Below are positions 654 through 46,467 of a stretch of DNA of 64,000 nt, in pieces. The DNA lies in the NCBI RefSeq assembly GCF_903064525.1, contig NZ_LR797830.1:930001-994000 (forward strand), read 5' to 3'. The translations under genes and the position numbers were made by a program. A model generated the notes under the pieces. It was not told the origin of the DNA, did no database searches, and was given only the letters and a program-made list of their open reading frames with translations. How positions within the stretch are numbered: position 1 is the first letter of the stretch; every line of letters begins with the position of its first letter. The DNA is from Methylacidimicrobium sp. AP8. Lineage in GTDB: Bacteria > Verrucomicrobiota > Verrucomicrobiia > Methylacidiphilales > Methylacidiphilaceae.

Positions 654-1469
654 GTGAATCCTGCAACCGCCGGAAAGCTGGAGCCCAAGGAGGGGCTCTT
701 CGTCCTCCACCTTTTCTACCGGTTCGAAGGAAGAGATCTCGCAGGGGCGGCGTCGTCCAAGGTGCTGCTGGGAAGCCTGGAAGCATTGCTCGCGGAGGCC
801 CGCGAGGCGGATCGGACGCAAGTTGCTACCCTGTCCCTGATCGGGAGGGCCGACCTCGGCTTCCTTTTTTTCTGCCCCGACCTCCACCGGCTCCATCGCT
901 GGGAGAAGCGGCTGGCCGCCCTGCTTGGCCGCAACGGGTGGGCGAAGACCTTCTCCTTCTTCTCGATGACGGAACGTTCCGAGTACACGACCTCGGAAGA
1001 AGAACATGCCGATCAGCTCATTTCCCAGGAGGGGCTCGTTCCCGGATCCCAGGAATTCGAGGAGAAGATGAAGTCCTTTCGCGAGCGGATGCGCCACTAC
1101 ACCGAGGTCCGGCTCTACCCCACCCTGCCGGATTGGCCCTTCTTCGCCTTCTATCCGATGAACAAGAAGAGGGAGGCGGGGATGAACTGGTACGTCCTCT
1201 CGCTCGCCGAAAGGAAGGAGCTGATGCGGGGCCACGCGCTGGTCGGACGGCGTTACACCGGGCGGGTCGTCCAGTATGTGACCGGATCGACCGGCTTGGA
1301 CGACTGGGAGTGGGGTGTTACCCTCTTCGCTCACGATCCCTACGAGGTGAAGGCGATCGTGACCGAGATGCGCTTCGATTCTGTAAGCGCCCGTTACGGG
1401 GAGTTCGGTCCCTTCTACACCGGGTTGCAGGCGCCCGTCGCCGAAATCCTCGACCGGCTCGCCGTTTGA
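654..1469 (+). CDS. hemQ: Coproheme decarboxylase HemQ (chlorite dismutase family)
   Basis: Peroxide-dependent decarboxylase that turns coproheme into heme b, the last step of the coproporphyrin-dependent heme pathway. The 271-residue protein carries the family signatures [14 protein letters not shown] (about residues 167-180), [11 protein letters not shown] with the expected proximal heme ligand His194, and [15 protein letters not shown] (about 211-225). These match HemQ rather than true chlorite dismutases, which need a distal Arg that I cannot confirm. The start is GTG at 654. The glutaredoxin gene follows 100 bp downstream on the same strand. The presence of HemQ suggests the cell does not rely on the classical protoporphyrin route. 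Confidence 0.9.
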
Positions 1470-7555: not shown

Positions 7556-9664
7556 ATGACTATCCGACTGCGAATCGGCGGCATGACTTGCTCCAACTGC
7601 GCCCGGCACGTGCAGAGCGCCTTGAGCGCCGTTCCGAAGGTGATTTCGGCGCGGGTCGAGCTGGAGAAGGGACGGGCGACGGTCGACGTCGAGGAGGGCG
7701 GTCCTTCCCCGTCGTCGCTCGTGGAAGCGGTCCGGAAGGCCGGCTACGAGGCCGCGCCGGCGGACGAAGAAGAAGACTCTTCGGGGCCTTGGCAGCGGGG
7801 CTTGCTGGTCGGCATCGTGCTCACCCCGCTCCTCTTCCTCCTGCCCTGGCTCGTTCGGGCTCCCCCGCATGCCGCCTGGGTCGGCTGGCTCGAGTTCGCC
7901 CTGGCCCTGCCGGTGCAGATCCTCACGGGCCGTCCTTTCTACCAGGGAGCCTACCGGCAGCTCCGCCACGGAAGGCTCGATATGGACGTGCTGGTCTCCT
8001 TGGGAAGCACGGCCGCGTTTCTGTTGAGCCTCTACGGCCTCTTGCGGCCGGCGGCACTTGCCCATGTCTACTTCGACGAGGCCGCGGCGATTCTTACCCT
8101 GGTCAGCGTGGGTCATTGGCTCGAGGCGCGCGTCTCGCTCCGCGCTTCCCGCACGTTGCGGACGCTTCTGTCGCTGGCTCCGCCCAAGGCGCGCCGGCGG
8201 CTCGACGACGGTAGCGAGGAAGAGGTTTTGGTGGAGGATCTCCGAAAGGGCGACTTGGTCGTGTTAAGACCCGGAGATCGCGTCCCGGTCGACGGCGTCC
8301 TCGAGGAGGGGAAAGCGGTCCTCGACGAAAGCATGCTCACCGGAGAGTCCCAAGTGGTGGAAAAATCAGCCGGCAGCCCGATTTATGCCGGGACGATCAA
8401 TATGAGCCGCCGGATCACGTTGCGGGTTTCGGCCGCCGGGTCGGAAACCGTGCTCGCCCACATCACGTCGGTCGTCGAGCGGGCGCAGCAGAGCCGGGCG
8501 ACGATCCAGCGGCTGGTCGACCGGGTGAGCAACGTCTTCGTGCTTGCGGTGCTCGCGGTGGCCAGCGGAACCGTGCTCGGTTGGGCATGGGTCGGTCTGG
8601 GCTGGGAAACGGCTCTGCTGCGGGCCGCGTCCGTTCTCGTCGTCGCCTGCCCCTGTGCGATGGGGCTGGCGACTCCTGCGGCGATCCTGGTCGCCGCCAA
8701 CGTGGCGGCGCGCCGCGGCGTTCTCCTCCGCGATGCCCAGGCGCTCGAAAAGTGCGGACGGATCCGGAAGATCGTCTTCGACAAGACCGGCACGCTGACC
8801 GAGCCGGCCGTAGGGAAGCCGGTCTACTACGGGAAGCCCCAGGCGGGGGTCGAAGGACTGGCGCTGGCGCTGGCCGCCCCGAGCCGCCACCCCCTGAGCC
8901 AGGCGGTGGCGAGGCGTTTCTCGGACGCCCCGGAAGTGGAGTTGGCGGACTGGGAGGAGGAACGCGGGCTTGGGGTGCGGGCTTCCTACCGGGGGGAGGT
9001 CGCGCGGCTGGGCTCGCTGCGCTGGCTAGCCGAAATCGGCGTTCGGGTCCCGCCGGAGGCGGAGGGAGAGGCGGATGGGGCGCTCGGACTCGCCGTGGGG
9101 AAGGAGTTGTTGGCGACCTTTCCGATCCTCACCCGGCCCAAGCCCTCCGCCGCGGGCGTGCTGCGCGGCCTCCAGGAACGGGGCTACGAGGTCTATCTTG
9201 TATCGGGCGATCGGGCCGAGGCGGCGTTCGCCTTCGCACGCGAGGTGGGAATCCCGGCAGAGCGGACCTTCGCCGAGGTGCGCCCGGAAGCCAAGGCCGA
9301 GATCGTCCGAAGGCTCCAGGCCGAAGGAGGAGGGGTCGCGTTCGTGGGAGACGGGATCAACGATGCCCCGGCCCTCGCCCAGGCCGATTTGGGCATCGCA
9401 GTCCTCCAGGCGACCGATATCGCGCGGGAATCGGCCGACGTGATTCTGCTCCGGCAAGACATCGAGGCGATTCCGGAGATTCTGGCCCTGAGCGCCAAGA
9501 CTCTCCGCACGATTCATGAGAATCTCTTCTGGGCCTTTTTCTACAACGCGGCGGCGATTCCACTCGCGGTCTTCGGAGTGCTCTCTCCGGCTGTCTGCGC
9601 GGCGGCGATGGGCCTCTCCGACCTGTTCGTCGTCGGGAATGCCTTGCGACTCTCCCGCCGGTGA
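7556..9664 (+). CDS. copA: Copper-translocating P-type ATPase (CopA type)
   Basis: Inner-membrane P1B-1 ATPase of 702 residues that exports Cu(I). In order: one heavy-metal domain with GMTCSNC (Cys12 and Cys15), membrane helices, TGES of the actuator domain (about 262), the transmembrane CPC motif in ACPCAMGLATP (Cys365), the phosphorylation site DKTGT (Asp409), SRHP, GDGINDAPAL (about 599), and the last helices with FYNAAAIP and MGLSD, residues that define Cu(I) selectivity. The ATG at 7556 begins right at the metal-binding domain; an in-frame upstream start would add only 12 residues. No copper chaperone or CueR gene is adjacent. Confidence 0.95.
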   Translation: MTIRLRIGGMTCSNCARHVQSALSAVPKVISARVELEKGRATVDVEEGGPSPSSLVEAVRKAGYEAAPADEEEDSSGPWQRGLLVGIVLTPLLFLLPWLVRAPPHAAWVGWLEFALALPVQILTGRPFYQGAYRQLRHGRLDMDVLVSLGSTAAFLLSLYGLLRPAALAHVYFDEAAAILTLVSVGHWLEARVSLRASRTLRTLLSLAPPKARRRLDDGSEEEVLVEDLRKGDLVVLRPGDRVPVDGVLEEGKAVLDESMLTGESQVVEKSAGSPIYAGTINMSRRITLRVSAAGSETVLAHITSVVERAQQSRATIQRLVDRVSNVFVLAVLAVASGTVLGWAWVGLGWETALLRAASVLVVACPCAMGLATPAAILVAANVAARRGVLLRDAQALEKCGRIRKIVFDKTGTLTEPAVGKPVYYGKPQAGVEGLALALAAPSRHPLSQAVARRFSDAPEVELADWEEERGLGVRASYRGEVARLGSLRWLAEIGVRVPPEAEGEADGALGLAVGKELLATFPILTRPKPSAAGVLRGLQERGYEVYLVSGDRAEAAFAFAREVGIPAERTFAEVRPEAKAEIVRRLQAEGGGVAFVGDGINDAPALAQADLGIAVLQATDIARESADVILLRQDIEAIPEILALSAKTLRTIHENLFWAFFYNAAAIPLAVFGVLSPAVCAAAMGLSDLFVVGNALRLSRR

Positions 9665-9721
9665 CGTAGGAATGGGGTCCGCGGCCCAGGCCGCTGCGAG
9701 GCCGCGCAGCCGTCGAATCCA

Positions 9722-10384
9722 ATGGGTTGGGATCTCTGGCTCTTTTACGAGATCAACACGCGCTGGACCTCTCCGCTGCTCGACCGCTGGATGCCCGTGG
9801 TCTCCCACTACCACCACTTCCGGGGAATCGTGCTCGCGGGCGTTCTGGCCTTGGCCGTCTTCGGCCGCTTTCGGGACCGCTGTTTCCTCGGCCTTGTCGG
9901 GCTTTGTCTCGTCGTGGGGGACATGGGTGTGACCGATGGAATCAAGCATCTGGTCAACCGGCCCCGGCCGTTTTCCGTTCTTCCCGGTGTCCGCCTGGTC
10001 GACGAAGGAAAGATTTCCTGGTCCGATCCGAGCCGGGGGCCGCAAGGCCGGTCGTTTCCTTCCGGGCACGCGGCAAACAACGCGGCCCTCGCCTACTTGG
10101 CGACCGCTTTCTACGGGCCGAGGTTTGCCTGGGTTTGGCTCTGGGCGGGACTGGTGGGCTACTCGCGGGTCTATCTCGGGGTCCACTATCCCTCCGACGT
10201 TCTGGCGGGCTGGCTGGCGGGAGCGTTCTACGGCTGGGCGCTGAGCTCCGGGGCCGCCTATGCTTGGCAGCGGTGGGGGAGTCACGCCTTCCCGCGACTC
10301 TACGCCGCCCATCCCCGCCTCCTCTACGAGCCGCGGAAGCCGCGAAAGGAGCCGGAGCCGCCGCGGGAGAGCAATATCGGCTAA
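9722..10384 (+). CDS. PAP2-family membrane phosphatase
   Basis: Integral membrane acid phosphatase of the PAP2 family (220 residues), acting on lipid phosphates such as phosphatidylglycerol phosphate or undecaprenyl pyrophosphate. The tripartite active site is complete: KHLVNRPRP, then PSGH, then SRVYLGVHYPSD with the catalytic His. Several hydrophobic segments (for example GIVLAGVLALAVFG and WVWLWAGLVGY) surround it. The substrate cannot be deduced. It is 57 bp downstream of copA and 16 bp upstream of the amidohydrolase gene. Confidence 0.9.
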   Translation: MGWDLWLFYEINTRWTSPLLDRWMPVVSHYHHFRGIVLAGVLALAVFGRFRDRCFLGLVGLCLVVGDMGVTDGIKHLVNRPRPFSVLPGVRLVDEGKISWSDPSRGPQGRSFPSGHAANNAALAYLATAFYGPRFAWVWLWAGLVGYSRVYLGVHYPSDVLAGWLAGAFYGWALSSGAAYAWQRWGSHAFPRLYAAHPRLLYEPRKPRKEPEPPRESNIG

Positions 10385-10400
10385 GATCGGACGACGACGG

Positions 10401-11621
10401 ATGCTCATCTCGGCTAAGGCTGTCCTCCTCGAACCCGGAGAGATCGTGGCTCCCGGTACGGTGCGCGTGCTCGGAAGCCGGATCGTCGAGGTAGCGGAGG
10501 ATATTTCCTGCCGCCCCGGCGAAGAGCGGATCGTCCTCGAGGACGCCGTTCTCTCTCCGGGCCTGATCAATGCGCACGTCCATCTCGATTACTCGGGCCT
10601 TCGCGGAAAGCTACCCTCCGGGTCCTTCCCGGCCTGGCTGAAGGAGATCATCCGCCTCAAGGCCGCCTTGAGGCGGACGGATTTGCAGGCGTCTCTCGAG
10701 GAGGGGTTCGCGCGGCTGGCCGAATCCGGCACGACCGGCGTGGCCAACATCGAGGCCTTCCCCGAGCTTCTTCTTTGGGCCGAGCAGTTCCCGCTCCGCT
10801 GCTGGTGGTTCCTCGAGCTTATCGACGTCCGCCCTCATATCTGGTCCGCGGAGGCGACCGGCGCTGTGCTCCGCTTCTTCGACCAACCTCCCGGCCCGCT
10901 CGGCAAGCTCGGGCTGGCGCCGCATGCGCCCTATACGGTCTCGCCCGAGCTCTACCGGCTGGTCCGGGAGGCCGCCCGCCGCTTTCGGCTTCCTGTGACC
11001 ACGCATCTGTCCGAGTCGCCCGAGGAGTGGGAGATGTTTTATCACGGAGACGGTGCGCTCCTCGACCTGGTCCGCCAAGCCGGGCGCACGGCAGAGAAGG
11101 GGCGGGAGATCTCTCCGCTGCAGTGGCTCGACCGGATCGGCGGCCTCGCTCCCGGAATGCTGCTGGTCCACTTGAACTATTTAGCCGATGCGGACTGGGC
11201 CCTGCTGGCACGAAGGGACTACTCTGTCGTCCACTGCCCCAAGTCGCACGCTTTCTTTTCCTACGCTCCTTTCCCTCTGGAGCGGATGCTCTCGCTCGGA
11301 ATCCCCATCTGCCTGGCGACCGACAGCCTCGCCAGCAACGACTCCCTCGACTTGCGGGAGGAGATCCGGTCGGCCCGCCGCAAGCATCCCGGAATTCCCG
11401 CCGAGCGGTGGTGGGAGATGGTGACGGCCGCGCCGGCTCGAGCGTTGGGCTACGGCGGCACCCTGGGCGAGATCCGAAGCGGAGCGTGGGCGGACCTGGT
11501 CGCCTTCCGGTGGAAGAGCGGGCTCGATCCGTGGGAAGCCTGCTGCGAGGGCCGGGAGGAGCCGCTCTTCCTCATGGTGCACGGGAGGGTGCTCAAGGCG
11601 GAGGGACGCTGGCATCGATGA
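10401..11621 (+). CDS. Amidohydrolase, ATZ/TRZ-type deaminase family
   Basis: Metal-dependent hydrolase of 406 residues with a complete mononuclear site: HVH (His59, His61), THLSES (His202), VHLN (His257) and ATDSLASNDSL (Asp308). The SLASN.SLDLREE stretch is typical of deaminases such as S-adenosylhomocysteine, chlorohydrolase-like and aminodeoxyfutalosine deaminases. A role in menaquinone synthesis by the futalosine route (MqnX-like) is possible but unproven. The stop overlaps the bioF start (ATGA at 11618-11621), so it is translationally coupled to biotin genes. That placement is intriguing, as no deaminase is known in the standard biotin pathway. Confidence 0.8.
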   Translation: MLISAKAVLLEPGEIVAPGTVRVLGSRIVEVAEDISCRPGEERIVLEDAVLSPGLINAHVHLDYSGLRGKLPSGSFPAWLKEIIRLKAALRRTDLQASLEEGFARLAESGTTGVANIEAFPELLLWAEQFPLRCWWFLELIDVRPHIWSAEATGAVLRFFDQPPGPLGKLGLAPHAPYTVSPELYRLVREAARRFRLPVTTHLSESPEEWEMFYHGDGALLDLVRQAGRTAEKGREISPLQWLDRIGGLAPGMLLVHLNYLADADWALLARRDYSVVHCPKSHAFFSYAPFPLERMLSLGIPICLATDSLASNDSLDLREEIRSARRKHPGIPAERWWEMVTAAPARALGYGGTLGEIRSGAWADLVAFRWKSGLDPWEACCEGREEPLFLMVHGRVLKAEGRWHR

Positions 11622-12751
11622 GCGGGGAATTCCGCGCGGCGCTCCGGAGGGAGCTCGAGAGCCTCTCGGAGGCGGGGCTCTACCGGTCGCTGCCGCAACC
11701 ATCGCACAAAGACGGCAAGCGGCCCTGGTGCAACTTCGCCTCGAGCGATTATCTCGGGCTCGCCCGACATCCGGAGGTGATCGAGGCGGGCTGCCGGGCA
11801 TTCCGCGGATGGGGGGCGGGCCTCGGCGCCTCCCGGCTGCTTTGCCCCGATGCGTCGCTGCACCGGGAGCTCGAAGCGCGCTTGGCTTCCTGGAAGCGGC
11901 GTCAAGCGGCCCTGGTCTTTTCGAGCGGCTATGCGGCCGCCGTAGGAACGATTCCCGTTCTGGTGGGGGCCGAGGATCTGGTCCTCCTCGACCGGCTCAG
12001 CCATGCATCCCTGATCGACGGAGCGCGCGCGAGCAAGGCGACACTGCGCGTCTTCCCCCACAACGATATGGCCGCGCTCGGCGAAATCCTGCTTCGCCAA
12101 CGGCGGCGCTTCCGGCGGGTGCTGCTGGTGACCGAGTCGGTCTTTTCCATGGACGGTGACGTCGCTCCGTTGCGGGAGCTGGTGGCGCTCAAGGAGCAAC
12201 ACGGGGCCTGGTGCCTGGTGGACGAGGCCCACGCCGAAGGCGTCTTCGGGCGGACCGGAGCGGGGCTTATCGAGGCGCTCGGCTTGGAGGGCCGGATCGA
12301 GGTGGAGTTAGGAACCCTTTCGAAGGCGCTGGGATCGGCGGGCGGGTTCGTCGCGGGAGACCGGGAGCTTATCGATCTCTTGGTCAACCGGGCACGCTCC
12401 TTCGTCTACTCGACGGCCCTCCCGGGGCCTGCGGTCGCGGCGGCCGCGGCGGCTCTCGCCCTGGCGATCGGGGAGGAGGGAGAGGAGCGGCGGAAGCGGC
12501 TGCGCGAGCGCATCGCGCTCTTCGCGGGAGGCGACGGAAGCCGCCCTCCCATTTTTCCGGTGGTCTACGGGGAGGAACGCCGGGCGGTTGCGGCGGCGGC
12601 CCGGCTTCGGGAGGGGGGAATCTTCGCACCGGCGATCCGGTTTCCGACCGTTCCCAAGGGGGAGGCCCGGCTGCGGATTTCCCTTTGCGCGTTCCATACG
12701 CCGGAGGAGATCCGGGCGCTCCAAGCAGAGCTCCGGAGAGAGGAGCCGTGA
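11618..12751 (+). CDS. bioF: 8-amino-7-oxononanoate synthase
   Basis: PLP enzyme that condenses pimeloyl-ACP (or CoA) with alanine, the first step of biotin ring assembly. The 377-residue protein has the alpha-oxoamine synthase signatures: FASSDYLGLARHPEV, GAGLGASRLLC, LLVTESVFSMDGDVAPL, DEAHAEGVFG and the PLP-binding Lys in TLSKALGSAGG. Related enzymes such as Kbl or SPT share the fold, but the direct coupling to bioA (GTGA overlap at 12748-12751) supports BioF. Confidence 0.9.
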   Translation: MSGEFRAALRRELESLSEAGLYRSLPQPSHKDGKRPWCNFASSDYLGLARHPEVIEAGCRAFRGWGAGLGASRLLCPDASLHRELEARLASWKRRQAALVFSSGYAAAVGTIPVLVGAEDLVLLDRLSHASLIDGARASKATLRVFPHNDMAALGEILLRQRRRFRRVLLVTESVFSMDGDVAPLRELVALKEQHGAWCLVDEAHAEGVFGRTGAGLIEALGLEGRIEVELGTLSKALGSAGGFVAGDRELIDLLVNRARSFVYSTALPGPAVAAAAAALALAIGEEGEERRKRLRERIALFAGGDGSRPPIFPVVYGEERRAVAAAARLREGGIFAPAIRFPTVPKGEARLRISLCAFHTPEEIRALQAELRREEP

Positions 12752-27071: not shown

Positions 27072-28952
27072 CTACGTCGATTCGCTTCCTTCGGAGCGGA
27101 CGGGCTTGGGCTTGGGTTGGACCTTTTCGTAGAAGATCCGGACTTCGCTCTCTTTTTTGCCGAGGAGCTGCTGGGCGCGGAGGAGGGCGTTCCGGGTGGA
27201 GAGGTTGGGATGGACGCCGAAGAGGGGGAAGACGTTTTCCCGACCGATGGTGTCGATCACCCCGCTGCTGCGGAGCACGCGGATGATCGGCCGTGTCGCC
27301 CCGCTGATGAGGAGGTGGCGGCCGCTCTCGTGCATCATCTTGGCCAGCTCGTCGATAGCCAGCGCGCAGGTCGCGTCGAGATGGTGGGCGTTGCGCATCC
27401 GGAGGATGACTACCCGGAGAGAGGGATCGAGACAGATCCGGCGGATCTGCTCCCGAAAGAGATCGGCGACGCCGAAGAAGAGCTCTCCCTCAACGTGGAT
27501 GATGCAGATCTCGGGAAGGATCCTCTCCTCGCTGCGGCCTTTTTCCCGTAATCCCTCTTCCGCGTCGTAGGTGTACTCGACGAGGGTGGGCTGCCCGACT
27601 TGCTTGAGAAAGAGGAGCACCGAGACGCCGATCCCGAGGCCGATCGCGAAGTCGAGGGGGGTGAGAAGGGCGCTTAAGAAGGTCACCCCGAACGCGATCC
27701 CGTCGGCTGTCGTCGATTGGAGGGCGATCCGGATCTCGCGCCAGTTGATGAGGGAAAATCCGGTCAGGACGACCAGAGTCGCCAGAGCGGGCATGGGGAT
27801 GTAGGCGAAGAGGGGGCCCGCCAAGAGGAGGCCAGCGGCCAGCAGTAGTCCGCTCCAGAAGTTGCTCAGGACGGTGGCGGGCCTGCTGATCCAGTTGAGT
27901 GCGGAACGGGTGAGCGAGCCGGAAACCGGCATCCCGCCCAAGAAGGCGCAGGCCACATTGGCCGCTCCCTGGGCAAACATCTCGCGGTTGAGGTCGATCG
28001 GCTCCCCGGAGCGGCTGGCCAGCGACTTGCCGATGCTCGCCCCCTCGATCGCGGCGAAGGAGGCGAGCGCCAGGGAGGTGCTGGCGAGCTGGGAAAACCA
28101 CTGCCAGCGGAAAGAGGGGAGGGTAACCGGCCAGTACCCGAAGGGGATCGGATCGAGATAGCGGACCGGAAGGTGGAGCAAGCGGAAGGGAAGGGCCAAG
28201 ACCGATACGACTAGGAGGGCGACCGCCACCGCGGGCAGCTTGGGGAAGAGCCTCTTGACCCACAACCAGGCGAGAAAGGCGAGGAGGCTCAGGGCGACGG
28301 ACGGCCATTGGGCTTGGGGGGCGTGACGGACCGTCTGCTGAACGATGTCGAAGAAGGTGGAAACTTCCGGGATCGAGATCCCGAGCATATGGTGCGCCTG
28401 ATTGGCGATGATCAGGAAGGCCGCCCCGGTGACGTAGCCGATCACGACGGTCCGGGAAACGTATTGGGTAAGGGCCGCGGCCCGGAAGAGGGCTCCGGCC
28501 AGAAGGGCGATCCCCATCAGGAGCAGCAGCAGGCTCAGGGAATGGAGCTTGTCGATCTTGCCCTGCATGCCCAGGTAGAAGCTAAAGACCAGAACGGCCG
28601 TGGCGTTGGTCGGCCCGAGGACGACATAGCGGGAGCTCTGGAAGAGGGGGCCGACGATCGAGGCGACCGCGCAGGCGTAGATGCCGAACTGGACCGGTAG
28701 TCCCGCGATCAGGGCATAGGCCATCCCCTGGGGAAAGGAAAGGAGGGCGACGTTGACCGCCGCGCTCAGGTCGGCGCGCAGCTTGGCCGGGGAGTAGGAG
28801 CGAAAGGTGCTTCGGAGGGGGCCGAGATCCAGGTGGAGCTCATTCCACTGGTCGCGCAGCCTGCGGGCCAGCCGAGCCGAGACCGGCCGGACGCGTTTCA
28901 GGAGGAGCCGTCGCGCATCGTCCGCCAGTCGATTCCCCTTGAGCGGCTCCAT
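27072..28952 (-). CDS. SulP/SLC26 anion transporter with STAS domain
   Basis: 626-residue inner-membrane transporter of the SulP family. The hydrophobic core begins with LRADLSAAVNVALLSFPQGMAYALIAGLPV, the sulfate-transporter signature, and contains GPTNATAVL and GGMPVSGSLTRSALN. The C-terminal STAS domain (about residues 480-600) has HLDATCALAIDELAKMM, where a phosphorylatable Ser is replaced by Ala-rich residues. Substrates of the family are sulfate, bicarbonate, nitrate or molybdate; none can be assigned. The ATG at 28952 overlaps the upstream gene by 55 bp, so the two are probably co-translated. Confidence 0.88.
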   Translation of the reverse strand: MEPLKGNRLADDARRLLLKRVRPVSARLARRLRDQWNELHLDLGPLRSTFRSYSPAKLRADLSAAVNVALLSFPQGMAYALIAGLPVQFGIYACAVASIVGPLFQSSRYVVLGPTNATAVLVFSFYLGMQGKIDKLHSLSLLLLLMGIALLAGALFRAAALTQYVSRTVVIGYVTGAAFLIIANQAHHMLGISIPEVSTFFDIVQQTVRHAPQAQWPSVALSLLAFLAWLWVKRLFPKLPAVAVALLVVSVLALPFRLLHLPVRYLDPIPFGYWPVTLPSFRWQWFSQLASTSLALASFAAIEGASIGKSLASRSGEPIDLNREMFAQGAANVACAFLGGMPVSGSLTRSALNWISRPATVLSNFWSGLLLAAGLLLAGPLFAYIPMPALATLVVLTGFSLINWREIRIALQSTTADGIAFGVTFLSALLTPLDFAIGLGIGVSVLLFLKQVGQPTLVEYTYDAEEGLREKGRSEERILPEICIIHVEGELFFGVADLFREQIRRICLDPSLRVVILRMRNAHHLDATCALAIDELAKMMHESGRHLLISGATRPIIRVLRSSGVIDTIGRENVFPLFGVHPNLSTRNALLRAQQLLGKKESEVRIFYEKVQPKPKPVRSEGSEST

Positions 28953-30049
28953 TTCCGATAAGCCTCCGGCAAGATTTCCGATGGTTTGATTTCGCTGCGT
29001 CCTCCCCAGAAAATGTTCGAATAGAGGACCGGGATCCCGATCTGCCGAAGATGGTCGTCGATGGCGGCCTTGTGGAGCAAGAGCCGATCCTTTTCCCGGC
29101 CGTGCGCGACCGCCATCAGGTTGACGTTGCCGAACTCGGGACCAGCCTCCCGCCAGTAGCAGTGCGTCAGGATCTCGAAGCGGCCGATCTCCTGGCCCGC
29201 CTCCTCCACTCTTCCCGGCGGCACCGCCCAATGGAACAGACCGTTGAAGCGCGTGACCCGCTCGCCCGTCGAAAGCGGTTTCACATGCTCGAGGAAGGTC
29301 GAGAAGCGGCCGAGAATGCCAAGCCGCTCAAGCTCTCGCGCCACGCGGACGAACTCCGGGAAGTCGAGGCCGGCCGATCGGGTGCGGGACTGCCAGAAGC
29401 CCAAGCGGATCTCGTCGGGCCGAAGCTCTTCCTTGAGCACTTCCAGGACTTTCCACTGCACGTCGGAGAGCCTTCGCACTGTGACCGGGTGCATCCGGGC
29501 CCGGGCGGGAGAGAGGGCGCCGATTTCGAGAGTCCGTCGGCGGACATGACCGACGCCCAGGGTGAAGATCCCCTTGGCGCGCAGGATCCGGTGGCGAACC
29601 GCCCCGATCTGGCCGGAGAGGTAGCGGCAGTGGGCTTCGAGGGAGAATCCCTGCGGAACCTTGAGGGTGCTCCAGAGGCGGAAGGAAGAGCCGGCGGAGG
29701 CGGAATCGGTGGAACGGATGACCACATGGCCGCTGAAGGGATCCTCCGCCACGAGAAAGTCGAAGGCCGCGCCGAGCTTCTCCTCGGGAATCTCCCAGGC
29801 GATCAGGGCGCCGGGGGCCAGATCGTTGGCGAGCAGGGTCTGCCGGACTCGGCGGATTGTGCCTGCGGAGAGCATCGCCCGGATCCGGGCAGTGACGGTC
29901 GCGAGGGGAAGGCCGGAGAGGCGGGCGATCACGGCAAAAGGCTCCTCGTGGAATCCGGCCAGCTTGTCCTCGGAGACAGCCAGGATCCGCGCGTTGACCG
30001 GATCCTCGGTGCTCACGGGAAGAGGTTCGTCGAGGTCGAGGGAGCTCAT
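28898..30049 (-). CDS. Double Lrp/AsnC-like protein resembling fused siroheme decarboxylase subunits
   Basis: A 383-residue protein of two similar halves, each with a winged-helix segment and an Lrp-type alpha/beta domain. The first half has FAVIARLSGLPLATVTARI, GTIRRVRQTLLANDL and AHCRYLSGQIG. The second has ELERLGILGRFSTFLEH and RFEILTHCYWREAGPEFGN followed by NLMAVAHGREK. The THCY.R ... N...M.HG pattern is characteristic of NirD/L/G/H and AhbA/B siroheme decarboxylases, normally separate subunits of about 150-170 residues. It could decarboxylate siroheme for heme d1 or be a heme-responsive regulator. The ATG at 30049 has AAGGA upstream. Overlaps sulP. Confidence 0.65.
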   Translation of the reverse strand: MSSLDLDEPLPVSTEDPVNARILAVSEDKLAGFHEEPFAVIARLSGLPLATVTARIRAMLSAGTIRRVRQTLLANDLAPGALIAWEIPEEKLGAAFDFLVAEDPFSGHVVIRSTDSASAGSSFRLWSTLKVPQGFSLEAHCRYLSGQIGAVRHRILRAKGIFTLGVGHVRRRTLEIGALSPARARMHPVTVRRLSDVQWKVLEVLKEELRPDEIRLGFWQSRTRSAGLDFPEFVRVARELERLGILGRFSTFLEHVKPLSTGERVTRFNGLFHWAVPPGRVEEAGQEIGRFEILTHCYWREAGPEFGNVNLMAVAHGREKDRLLLHKAAIDDHLRQIGIPVLYSNIFWGGRSEIKPSEILPEAYRKWSRSRGIDWRTMRDGSS

Positions 30050-30113
30050 GATCCTTCTTTTTGACAACGAAAAAGCACGCAGGGAAAGCAAAACCCCACG
30101 TCCCCGGAGGCGC

Positions 30114-43183: not shown

Positions 43184-43312
43184 CGCTTATGAATGCACAG
43201 TCAAGCAAGCGGGTTGCCTTCTTCGAGCGCTATCTCAGCCTGTGGGTTGCGGCGTGCATGGTGCTCGGCGTAGCTCTCGGCAGGGCATCTCCCGCGGCCG
43301 CCCACCGCCTAA

Positions 43313-44841
43313 CAGCCTGTCGGCCTTAGTACGAGAGTTTGCCACGATGCGGCGACGGTCCGATGCGGCATGGGGAGCGATTGTCTCGGGAATCCTAAAA
43401 ACCAAGACAATGCGACGACCGTTTTTCCGGCGGAGAGCGACCATAGGGATCCAATCGGAAGGGAACCGGGCTTGCGGGCTCCCCCAAGCTTCCAAAGTCG
43501 CTTGAAGTTGTACGCCAAGCAGACCAACGACCATTCGCCCTGGACTTTGGCTTGCCCGCGGAGCCGAAATGCTCGGAAGCCCATTACCGATTTGATGATG
43601 CCGAAGACCGGTTCGACCGTCTGCTTGCGTCGAGCATAGAGGCGGCGGCCTTCCGGACTGGCGAGCTTCTCAACCATCTTGCGTCTCCACGGGGCGGTAT
43701 ATTCCACGGGCTTCTCCCGTCGACGATCGGTGGGCCGGAACTCGTATCGCCGGCGGCATTCCCGAGCTTCAGCCCTCATCGGACAGTAGACTTCGATTCC
43801 CTCCGCCTGCAGAGCCTCGACCTGTTCGCCATTGGCATACCCCGTGTCTACCAGCACCGCACGGACCCGACCGGCTTCCGTAGGAATGGCCCGCAGGTCG
43901 GCTTCCCACTCGCCGGCATCGTTGGCGCACACACTCACCCGAGCCGAAAGAAAGCACCAAGGCACTCCCTTCCGCATCTACGGCCGCTTGCGCATTAATA
44001 GCTCCGTGCGAAGGCTTCGCTTCCCGCTCTTGCGCATCTGCCGGCTCAAGGGCTCGGTCAGGTTGCTTTGCTCCTCCGCCCCAGGCTTCTCCTCCGGAGG
44101 GTGGATATGCCGCCCTTTGGCACTCCCCTTGCGAGCTTCCCGTTCTTTTCCCTTCCGCTCGTAATCCGCACGCTCCCGCTCCGCTCGCTCCTTGGCCCGT
44201 TCCTCCAGCCGGCGTTGCGCTTCCTCTAGCTTTGCCTGGAGCCGCTCCCGCCGACCAATCTCCTCAGGTAGCTTGCCCGGATCCGCTTCCTCTCTCCGGT
44301 CCGCTTCCTCCGCCTTCTTCAAGAGATCTGCCACATCCGCCCGCAAAAGCTCCACCAGTTCTCCGGCCCGCTCGTAGGTCACATTCCGATGCTTGCTCGC
44401 GTTGGCCCGAATCTTGGTCCCGTCGACACTCACCACCCCGACCTTCAAAAGCTTCATCTCCCGGGCCAACTCCAAGACCTTCAAAAAGCAGTCCGCCACC
44501 GCAGCAAAGTTCTCCCGCCGAAACCGGCAGATCGTGTCGTGATCCGGATGGGTCTTCGCACAAAGATAACGCACCGCCACGTCCCGCCGCGTCGCTGCCT
44601 CAATCCTCCGACTCGAAAAGATTCCGTTGGCGTAGCAATAAATCAAAAGCGAGAGCATCATCGACGGCGGATACTGTGCGTCCCCAGTCCCGCATACGTT
44701 CACCCGAAAGCCCCGCAGATCCATCCTCTCCACCGCCTCGATGACAAAATGCACCAAGTCGTCCTCCTCCACCCAATCTCGCAGGTCCTCGGGCAAAAGC
44801 ATCGGCGTCATCCGATCCACCGTCACAAATCGCTCAGCCAT
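43313..44841 (-). pseudogene. IS1182-family transposase, multiply frameshifted
   Basis: DDE transposase read from an ATG at 44841 (MAERFVTVDRMTPMLLPEDL). The N-terminal DUF772 domain is intact (HPDHDTICRFRRENF), as is the first Asp in VVSVDGTKIRANAS. Near 43978-44020 the frame breaks repeatedly: after SRQMRKSG the conserved text SEAFARSY, then NAQAAVDAEGSALVLS, then SARVSVCANDAGEWEADL lie in three successive frames. The rest has the second Asp (VLVDTGYANG) and the Glu region (KQTVEPVFGIIKSVMGFR then GEWSLVCLAYNFKRL). Three indels within about 80 bp make it inactive. Confidence 0.85.
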
Positions 44842-44889
44842 GCCCTCTTTTACCATATTCCAGAAGGAAAAGGAAAGTCCGACAGGCTG
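43313..44889. mobile_element. IS1182-like insertion sequence, 1577 bp
   Basis: Bounded by imperfect inverted repeats: left CAGCCTGTCGGCCTT, right (reverse complement) CAGCCTGTCGGACTT. It is flanked by 4-bp direct repeats CTAA at 43309-43312 and 44890-44893. The insertion lies inside the ACR3 gene. The only gene is a broken transposase on the minus strand. Confidence 0.9.
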
Positions 44890-45430
44890 CTAAGCGGCAT
44901 GGAATGGGGAGGGAGCCACATCAACATCCCGATCGCGGTTCTGATCTGGCTCATGATCTTCCCGATGATGCTCAAGATCGACTTCGGCGGCCTGCGCGGG
45001 GTCGCCCGGCGGCCGAAGGGGCTGGCGATCACCCTCTTTGTCAACTGGCTGGTCAAGCCCTTCAGCATGGCTCTGATCGGATCGCTCCTCGTCGTCGGGC
45101 TCTTTTCCTCGGCGTTCCACTGGATCGACCCGGCCACCGCCCACAATTATCTAGCCGGCTTGATCATCCTGGCGGCGGCTCCTTGCACGGCGATGGTCTT
45201 TGTCTGGAGCTATCTGGTCGAAGGGGATGCGGCGTACACGTTGGCGCAGGTGGCCGTCAACGACCTCATCATGACCTTCGCCTTCGCCCCCATCGTCATG
45301 CTGCTTGTCGGGGTGAGCGGGATCGTGGTCCCCAAGGAGGTGCTGCTCACCTCTGTCGTCGCCTTCATCGTGATTCCGCTGGCGGCGGGCTGGGTGACCC
45401 GCAGCCTCGTCATCCGACTCAAGGGCCTAG

Positions 45431-45607
45431 CGGCCATTTCTCACAAGCTTTCTCCTACGGCTTGCAAAACGGGCTCGTCTGCTTCGTTGGGCTTGGTTTT
45501 CCATCCTCGCAGTATGTCTTCATACAGCTCCGGTGGAAAACCTGCGCCCGCCTCGCACCCAAGCCCATTTGCGGCGCCTCGGCTACGAAATTTGTGAGAA
45601 ATGGCCG
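45431..45607. mobile_element. MITE copy A, 177 bp, inside ACR3
   Basis: Non-coding element with 16-bp perfect terminal inverted repeats (CGGCCATTTCTCACAA at the left, its complement at the right) and CTAG direct repeats at 45427-45430 and 45608-45611. The uninterrupted target can be read as AAG GGC CTA GCC TGG, giving the ACR3 residues KGLAW. It shares nearly all of its interior with copy B at 63.5 kb; they differ mainly in a short block (TTGG here, CTCCC there). The terminal repeats differ from those of the neighbouring IS1182-like element, so another transposase must move it. Confidence 0.92.
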
Positions 45608-46107
45608 CTAGCCTGGTTCGAAGGTGCGTTCCTTCCGCCCTTCCAGCCGGTGACGACTCTCGCCCTCCTGGCAACGCTGGTGATGATCTTCGCCTTCCAG
45701 GCGGAGAACATTCTGGCGAACGGGATTGCGGTCGGGTTGCTGGCCATTCCGATCCTGATCCAGGTTTATGCCAACGCGGGCCTCACCTACCTGCTCATGC
45801 GCTGGTTCCGGGTGCCGCACCCCGTCGCTTCTCCCGGAGCATTGATCGGGGCGAGCAACTTCTTCGAGCTTGCGGTGGCGGTCGCGATCACGCTCTTCGG
45901 CCCGACCTCCCCCGCGGCGCTGGCGACGGTGGTCGGGGTTCTGGTCGAGGTGCCGGTCATGCTTTCGGTCTGCCGCTTCTGTGTCGGCACCAAGGCCTGG
46001 TACGAAGCGATCGGATTGGATTTCTTCGACACGGAATCGATTCCGCAGGAAATCGAGTGTGTCGGAAAGGCAGCGGAAGAGAAAATCGGACAAGGAAAGG
46101 AGAAGCG

Positions 46108-46467
46108 ATGACGACGATCGAGATTTTTGAACCGCCTCTCTGTTGCCCTACGGGCGTTTGCGGGGCCGAAGTCGACCAGGCTCTCGTCGATTTCGCCGCC
46201 GACGTGGAGTGGGCGAAGCACAAGGGCATGACGATCCGCCGGTGGAACCTCCTCCGACAACCACTCGCCTTTGCGGAGAACCCCAAGGTGAAGGCCTTCC
46301 TGGAGCGGTCCGGCCAAGAAGCTCTTCCCTTCTTCCTTGGAGGAAGGTTGCCTAGACGATCGGCAACCGCTTGCTCAGAGCGAACTCGGCCAACCTGGCC
46401 AATTGCCGGTCCAGATCCGCTTTTGGATCGGCGCTGGACACGCGCGCCTAGAGGGCGACGCCGTTAG
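46108..46467 (+). pseudogene. arsD: Arsenic metallochaperone ArsD, 3' end replaced
   Basis: ArsD passes As(III) to efflux ATPases and represses ars genes weakly. The start is intact: IEIFEPPLCCPTGVCG with the three As-binding Cys, then VDQALVDFAADVEWAKHKG and LAFAENPKVKAFLERSGQEA LPFFLGG (split here). After GG (about 46345) the sequence no longer resembles ArsD; it runs into the 3' end of an IS607 remnant lying on the other strand and stops at 46467. The final residues (RRSATACSERTRPTW...) are therefore chimeric. The N-terminal part could still bind As(III). No arsA is present. Confidence 0.8.

Follow-up and report, generated by a model that had tools for sequence, protein, structure and literature searches.

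A fused siroheme-decarboxylase-like protein of Methylacidimicrobium that probably serves heme b synthesis together with ChdC

Siroheme decarboxylases share a conserved HXYXR motif; according to the relevant passages of PMC4145669 (Palmer and co-workers), His115 of AhbA ligates the iron and Arg119 possibly contacts a propionate, and Arg102 of AhbB is catalytic, its alanine mutant being inactive. In Haloferax volcanii, an excerpt of PMC5746218 gives nirDL, ahbC and a ChdC-type protein as present and uroD, cgoX and cpfC as absent, as its authors themselves remark. For the Xiphinematobacter genome of 2015, hemE, hemD, hemY and hemH were reported missing and diverged analogues were suggested, in the part of the genome paper that deals with them (PMC4607532). 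Here we consider a gene in a stretch of 64,000 nucleotides from Methylacidimicrobium sp. AP8 (contig NZ_LR797830.1, positions 930,001 to 994,000; hereafter the window), whose 383-residue product carries two siroheme-decarboxylase-like modules in one chain. This fused protein is most likely a single-chain siroheme decarboxylase that makes didecarboxysiroheme for heme b, with the coproheme decarboxylase ChdC (HemQ) as the last step in most carriers of the family. Fused siroheme decarboxylases are already known; the protein described here is a new branch, and its genomic context is new. No proposal of a ChdC-ended siroheme route for these bacteria was found among titles and abstract openings, a literature in which subscription journals are mostly not represented.

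The gene is genuine and not a chance open reading frame (ORF): it is present as a single copy in its own genome (the source genome, G000), it has 59 relatives, and comparison with four close ones gave ratios of nonsynonymous to synonymous substitution rates (dN/dS) of 0.10–0.17. The related loci, which are 55–86% identical and mostly full-length, come from a scan of genome contigs whose set of loci is labelled L001–L060. Their records carry the titles Verrucomicrobia, Phycisphaera, Planctomycetales, Chloroflexi, Eremiobacterota, Actinobacteria-type names, Thermoanaerobaculia and, in two cases, Proteobacteria; the titles of metagenome bins can mislead on taxonomy, and locus L028 is a complete planctomycete genome. 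The ATG of the fused gene is preceded by the bases AAGAAGGATC, and an alternative TTG start at 30091 would give a product of 397 residues.

The presence of two siroheme-decarboxylase-like modules in one chain, as claimed in a preliminary description of this DNA, is borne out by model matches and by structure. The NCBIfam AhbA model (NF040708) matches residues 32–165 with 33.8 bits and the AhbB model (NF040707) residues 222–343 with 74.3 bits; since both scores miss the equivalog cut-offs (140 and 125, respectively), the fused protein is classed neither as AhbA nor as AhbB. The Pfam model AsnC_trans_reg2 reaches 60.2 bits, with a cut-off of 27. The second-half motifs quoted in the same description are indeed present (HCYWR at residues 296–300, and NVNLMAVAHG), and the tetrapyrrole-binding His and Arg positions were located in both halves: H108, V110 and R112, as well as H296, Y298 and R300, are identical in all 57 rows of an alignment of relatives (A1) from which the partial loci L058–L060 were omitted. 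The C-terminal tail FWGGRSEIKPSE is nearly invariant across these rows. Four relatives from a genus labelled g6 keep His and Arg of both motifs and have Gln at the position of N310; the tail is degenerate in two of the four.

At E<1, sequence comparison links the protein to just two solved structures, 4ch7 (a fused NirD-like protein) and 4czd_B (AhbB); a profile of the 57 relatives adds 4czd_A (AhbA), aligned to the first half. The AlphaFold model, with a mean predicted local distance difference test score (pLDDT) of 88.4, superposes on 4ch7 with a Z score of 26.2 and a root-mean-square deviation of 3.4 over 303 of 309 residues, and on 4czc with Z 25.7; the best match other than NirDL reaches Z 9.3. 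In this predicted structure two Lrp/AsnC-type modules form one barrel, as is characteristic of siroheme decarboxylases. The structure list also contains monooxygenases and sulfur oxygenase reductase at Z 7–9, matches that are taken as a shared barrel fold. The fusion itself, presented earlier as a departure from the usual separate subunits, turns out not to be exceptional, the solved Hydrogenobacter NirDL and a Cupriavidus homologue being fused too.

The heme-gene content of the genomes that carry the family provides the link to heme b. In a sample of 193 Verrucomicrobiota genomes, 31 carry the family at E<1e-10; the tests were made on 50 genomes, covering each of the 31 carriers as well as 19 listed non-carriers, with the other 142 non-carriers outside them. 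HemE-type uroporphyrinogen decarboxylase occurs in 2 of the 31 carriers (in one, G096, with a best score of only 227 bits) as compared with 18 of the 19 non-carriers, and the corresponding figures are 1 and 18 both for HemH and for HemY above cut-off; 18 non-carriers hold all three proteins together. In Fisher tests the p values are near 2e-11 (HemH) and 2e-10 (HemE); as the genomes are related, these values are descriptive only. Beyond the 50 genomes, HemH was not found in 44 of 45 further carrier genomes (46 of the 59 loci were used, L034 and L046 sharing a genome), the single match being a 60-bit fragment with an internal stop. ChdC is present in all 15 carriers outside genus g6, that is in 15 of the 31 carriers overall, and in none of the 19 non-carriers. 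No second siroheme-decarboxylase-like protein was detected in the 50 genomes with an AhbB profile, save for a 31-bit match in G078. In the source genome, model searches found none of HemE, CgoX/HemY and CpfC/HemH, and CobA is present (TIGR01469, 292 bits, above cut-off). The preliminary description had reasoned from HemQ that heme b is made without the Ahb route; because the source genome is without HemE, HemY and HemH, its HemQ is compatible with a siroheme route, in which it is probably the final step, acting on siroheme-derived coproheme.

Two reduced genomes, G036 (0.916 Mb) and G057 (0.92 Mb), have both the family gene and ChdC, and model searches gave no NIR_SIR, AhbC-like, HemE, HemY or HemH match in either. 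HemD is found in G036 as a fusion to CobA, and dN/dS of this fusion in G036/G057 is 0.081 for the CobA half and 0.080 for the HemD half, with 0.084 for AtpD. As CobA is constrained like HemD and makes precorrin-2, something in these cells needs precorrin-2. No cobalamin pathway was seen in a by-eye reading of the G036 gene starts, and a CbiX-family chelatase is kept there (PF01903, 74.6 bits). A by-eye scan of G036 for CxxxCxxC gave the radical S-adenosylmethionine (SAM) proteins MqnE, MqnC, LipA, HemW, MiaB and a KamA-like protein, of which HemW was confirmed by model; other gene names in this genome were read by eye, save those identified by model. G036 further encodes a CysJ-like flavoprotein with FAD and NAD domains (L133:13613-14755; TIGR01931, 411 bits, below cut-off), despite the absence of a NIR_SIR match.

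Genus g6 has an AhbC-like protein in place of ChdC in 15 of its 16 carriers. Scores above 390 bits with the AhbC model were obtained for these 15, for G030 and for G189, and not for the source genome. In the g6 genome G027, an AhbC/NirJ1-like protein, whose 397 and 416 bits fall short of the cut-offs, adjoins a TIGR04053 protein (452 bits, above cut-off; 322 bits with the AhbD model); this radical SAM pair (L179:9444-11745), in a genome without HemE, HemH and ChdC matches and without HemY above cut-off, resembles the known Ahb layout.

One locus places the family gene among heme genes. L046, alone among loci L002–L060, also has HemA, HemC and CobA-HemD near the family gene, and on one strand the family gene (end at 9203) is followed, after a 6-base gap, by chdC (9210-10034), an aldo/keto reductase gene (10179-11210), hemC (11262-12254) and then cobA-hemD. 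The aldo/keto reductase is 62% identical to the one protein of its kind returned by a BLAST search of G036 (C1:328501-329562), which lies about 4 kb from the G036 family gene; the covered 56% of the source genome (about 1.30 of 2.30 Mb) yielded no protein of this type. It is a lead for the missing step discussed below, not a finding.

Carriers are without the branch that leads from uroporphyrinogen via coproporphyrin to coproheme, but those outside g6 keep ChdC, which requires coproheme; a siroheme route would supply coproheme without HemE, HemY and HemH. We infer the substrate, the reaction, the order of the steps and the existence of a missing enzyme. The two modules would pack together into a single siroheme-holding barrel, in which the iron is probably bound by His108 of the first half; Arg300, in the second half, would help to remove CO2 from the C12 and C18 acetates, yielding 12,18-didecarboxysiroheme. 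In the source genome and most carriers, a postulated enzyme would then strip the C2 and C7 acetates to give coproheme, which ChdC/HemQ would convert to heme b, whereas in genus g6 the pair of AhbC-like and AhbD-like radical SAM proteins may perform the last two steps. Candidates for the acetate-stripping enzyme are the aldo/keto reductase of L046 and the fused protein itself. A wider proposal, namely that in bacteria of some six phyla heme b is derived from siroheme by means of the fused decarboxylase and ChdC, with acetate stripping by an enzyme that is not AhbC-like, is tentative, and we give it slightly less than an even chance.

Several observations weigh against a siroheme decarboxylase that feeds ChdC. 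The Tyr of the HXYXR motif is replaced in the A-type half by Val (position 110) in all 57 rows. The AhbC model found no such protein in 14 of the 15 ChdC carriers, the source genome included. Of the 59 loci L002–L060, only L039 and L046 have ChdC near the family gene, and the genomes compared belong to one phylum, so that they are not independent. Three genomes are discordant: G030 has an AhbC-like protein without the family gene and without HemE, HemY and HemH; G096 has the family gene but neither ChdC nor AhbC; and G013 has the family gene together with hemE, hemY and hemH, and may hold two routes to heme. A CysG_N-type precorrin-2 dehydrogenase scored above cut-off in none of the 50 genomes; genomes that do have siroheme enzymes share this gap, and the model is uninformative phylum-wide. 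A phmmer query with the N-terminus of E. coli CysG gave nothing significant in G036, and CbiX was not found in the covered 56% of the source genome. Of the 50 genomes, 37 have sulfite/nitrite reductase domains despite the lack of a CysG_N-type match above cut-off, and in G013 the genes hemE, hemY and hemH are clustered within 5 kb (C1:218023-222843; L184).

Alternatively, the protein may replace HemE directly, removing the CO2 of all four acetates from uroporphyrinogen, uroporphyrin or iron-uroporphyrin to give coproporphyrin or coproheme, with iron inserted by a CbiX-type chelatase and with no part for siroheme or AhbC. This would account for the missing AhbC and would agree with the absence of HemE from 29 of the 31 carriers, with the CbiX-family protein kept in G036 and with a NirDL structure determined in the presence of an iron-uroporphyrin III analogue, as the title of 4czc states. 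CobA would be useless on such a route, however, and yet in the two reduced genomes, which have no NIR_SIR match, it is constrained like HemD; moreover, in g6 carriers the family occurs alongside an AhbC-like enzyme, and the loss of HemY and HemH would also need explaining. We consider a direct replacement of HemE unlikely.

That the protein is an Lrp/AsnC-type transcription regulator which senses heme or siroheme appears more unlikely still. The helix-turn-helix (HTH)-like segment in the first module, the superposition of the C-terminal half on many Lrp/AsnC regulators at Z 7–9 and the DNA binding reported for a relative, Heliophilum NirL (in a passage of PMC4145669), would suit a regulator, but the catalytic residues are invariant, the gene is retained in two 0.92-Mb genomes, and it is the entire chain that matches NirDL, at Z 26. 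In a tree of the halves, the decarboxylases group without Lrp and AsnC of E. coli, but the branches are long and the tree carries little weight. The synthesis of heme d1 for cytochrome cd1 nitrite reductase, an option raised in the preliminary description, has very little to recommend it beyond the fact that the nearest solved relatives are named NirDL. AhbC-type and NirJ-type models both score the same proteins highly, and no protein of the source genome exceeds 81 bits with the AhbC model, which makes heme d1 unlikely; the role was rejected since no AhbC/NirJ-type protein is seen there, the NirJ model itself not having been run on the genome and NirS, NirE and NirF not having been searched. 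The 81-bit match is, by eye, a PqqE-like protein beside PqqC. Retention of the family in the two 0.92-Mb genomes likewise speaks against heme d1.

The link of the fused gene to heme is not derived from its neighbours in the source genome, where ChdC lies about 27 kb away (Table 1) and HemA, HemC and CobA-HemD are located elsewhere. ORF clustering over the 60 loci revealed no neighbour common to over 13 loci, apart from frames that overlap the gene. The overlap with a SulP transporter gene, from which a link to anion or nitrogen oxide metabolism had been suggested, amounts to 55 nt if the SulP gene starts from the ATG at 28952, which has GGAGG in front of it; the suggested link is weak, as SulP is a lineage-specific neighbour, adjoining the family gene only in L001–L005 and L010 among the 60 loci, the records of which are named Methylacidimicrobium, Methylacidiphilum, Methylacidiphilaceae and LP2A or are the source genome itself. 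Elsewhere in the window (44389-46467 and 43309-44856), reading by eye revealed a seemingly interrupted Acr3-like arsenite transporter frame followed by an ArsD-like stretch, with a transposase-like gene beside them.

Table 1. Positions in the window of the fused gene, its parts and the proposed final enzyme
Feature	Position	Strand	Basis or remark
Fused siroheme-decarboxylase-like gene	28898..30049	(-)	ATG start, 383 aa; translation and NCBIfam, PDB and AlphaFold comparisons
First module (AhbA/NirD-like), residues 33-166	29552..29953	(-)	NCBIfam AhbA model
HTH-like segment in first module	29852..29947	(-)	Pfam NirdL-like_HTH, 20.3 bits, below cut-off 27
Motif H108-V-V110-I-R112	29714..29728	(-)	Aligns with AhbA iron-ligand His115 and Arg119; Val for usual Tyr
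Second module (AhbB/NirL-like), residues 223-344	29018..29383	(-)	NCBIfam AhbB model
Motif H296-C-Y298-W-R300	29150..29164	(-)	Aligns with His98, Tyr100 and Arg102 of AhbB
Conserved C-terminal tail FWGGRSEIKPSE	28976..29011	(-)	Outside the region sequence-aligned with AhbB or NirDL
Coproheme decarboxylase ChdC/HemQ, proposed final enzyme	654..1469	(+)	PF06778, 165.7 bits; NF008913, 225 bits, cut-off 253

If the fused protein is indeed a siroheme decarboxylase acting ahead of ChdC, this would explain heme synthesis in many bacteria without hemE, hemY and hemH, among them methane-oxidising Verrucomicrobiota and an apparent nematode symbiont, and would answer the suggestion of diverged analogues for missing heme genes made in the passage of PMC4607532 cited above. 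It would also imply that ChdC alone is no marker of the coproporphyrin route, and that one well-defined enzyme is missing, which probably works without radical SAM chemistry of the AhbC type.

The closest described counterpart is NirDL of Hydrogenobacter thermophilus (4ch7, 4czc), likewise a single two-module chain with the same fold over 303 residues and the same His and Arg positions. The two proteins are nevertheless only 22% identical, and the one described here has HxVxR instead of HxYxR, a conserved C-terminal tail and a place in genomes with ChdC, no NirJ-like gene having been detected in the source genome. AhbA and AhbB of Desulfovibrio desulfuricans (4czd, 4un1) have in common with it the iron-ligand His and the Arg in the first half and the His-Tyr-Arg in the second; they differ in being separate subunits that work with the radical SAM proteins AhbC and AhbD, and their NCBIfam equivalog cut-offs are not reached by the fused protein. 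With the coproporphyrin-dependent pathway (HemE, CgoX, CpfC and ChdC) the last enzyme, ChdC, is shared, whereas HemE, CgoX/HemY and CpfC/HemH were not found in the source genome. The route of Haloferax volcanii, as far as the excerpt of PMC5746218 describes it (NirDL/NirGH, AhbC, and AhbD or the ChdC-type PitA), differs in having AhbC and AhbD, whereas 14 of the 15 ChdC carriers studied here are without AhbC; as in these carriers, a siroheme decarboxylase is combined there with ChdC in the absence of uroD, cgoX and cpfC.

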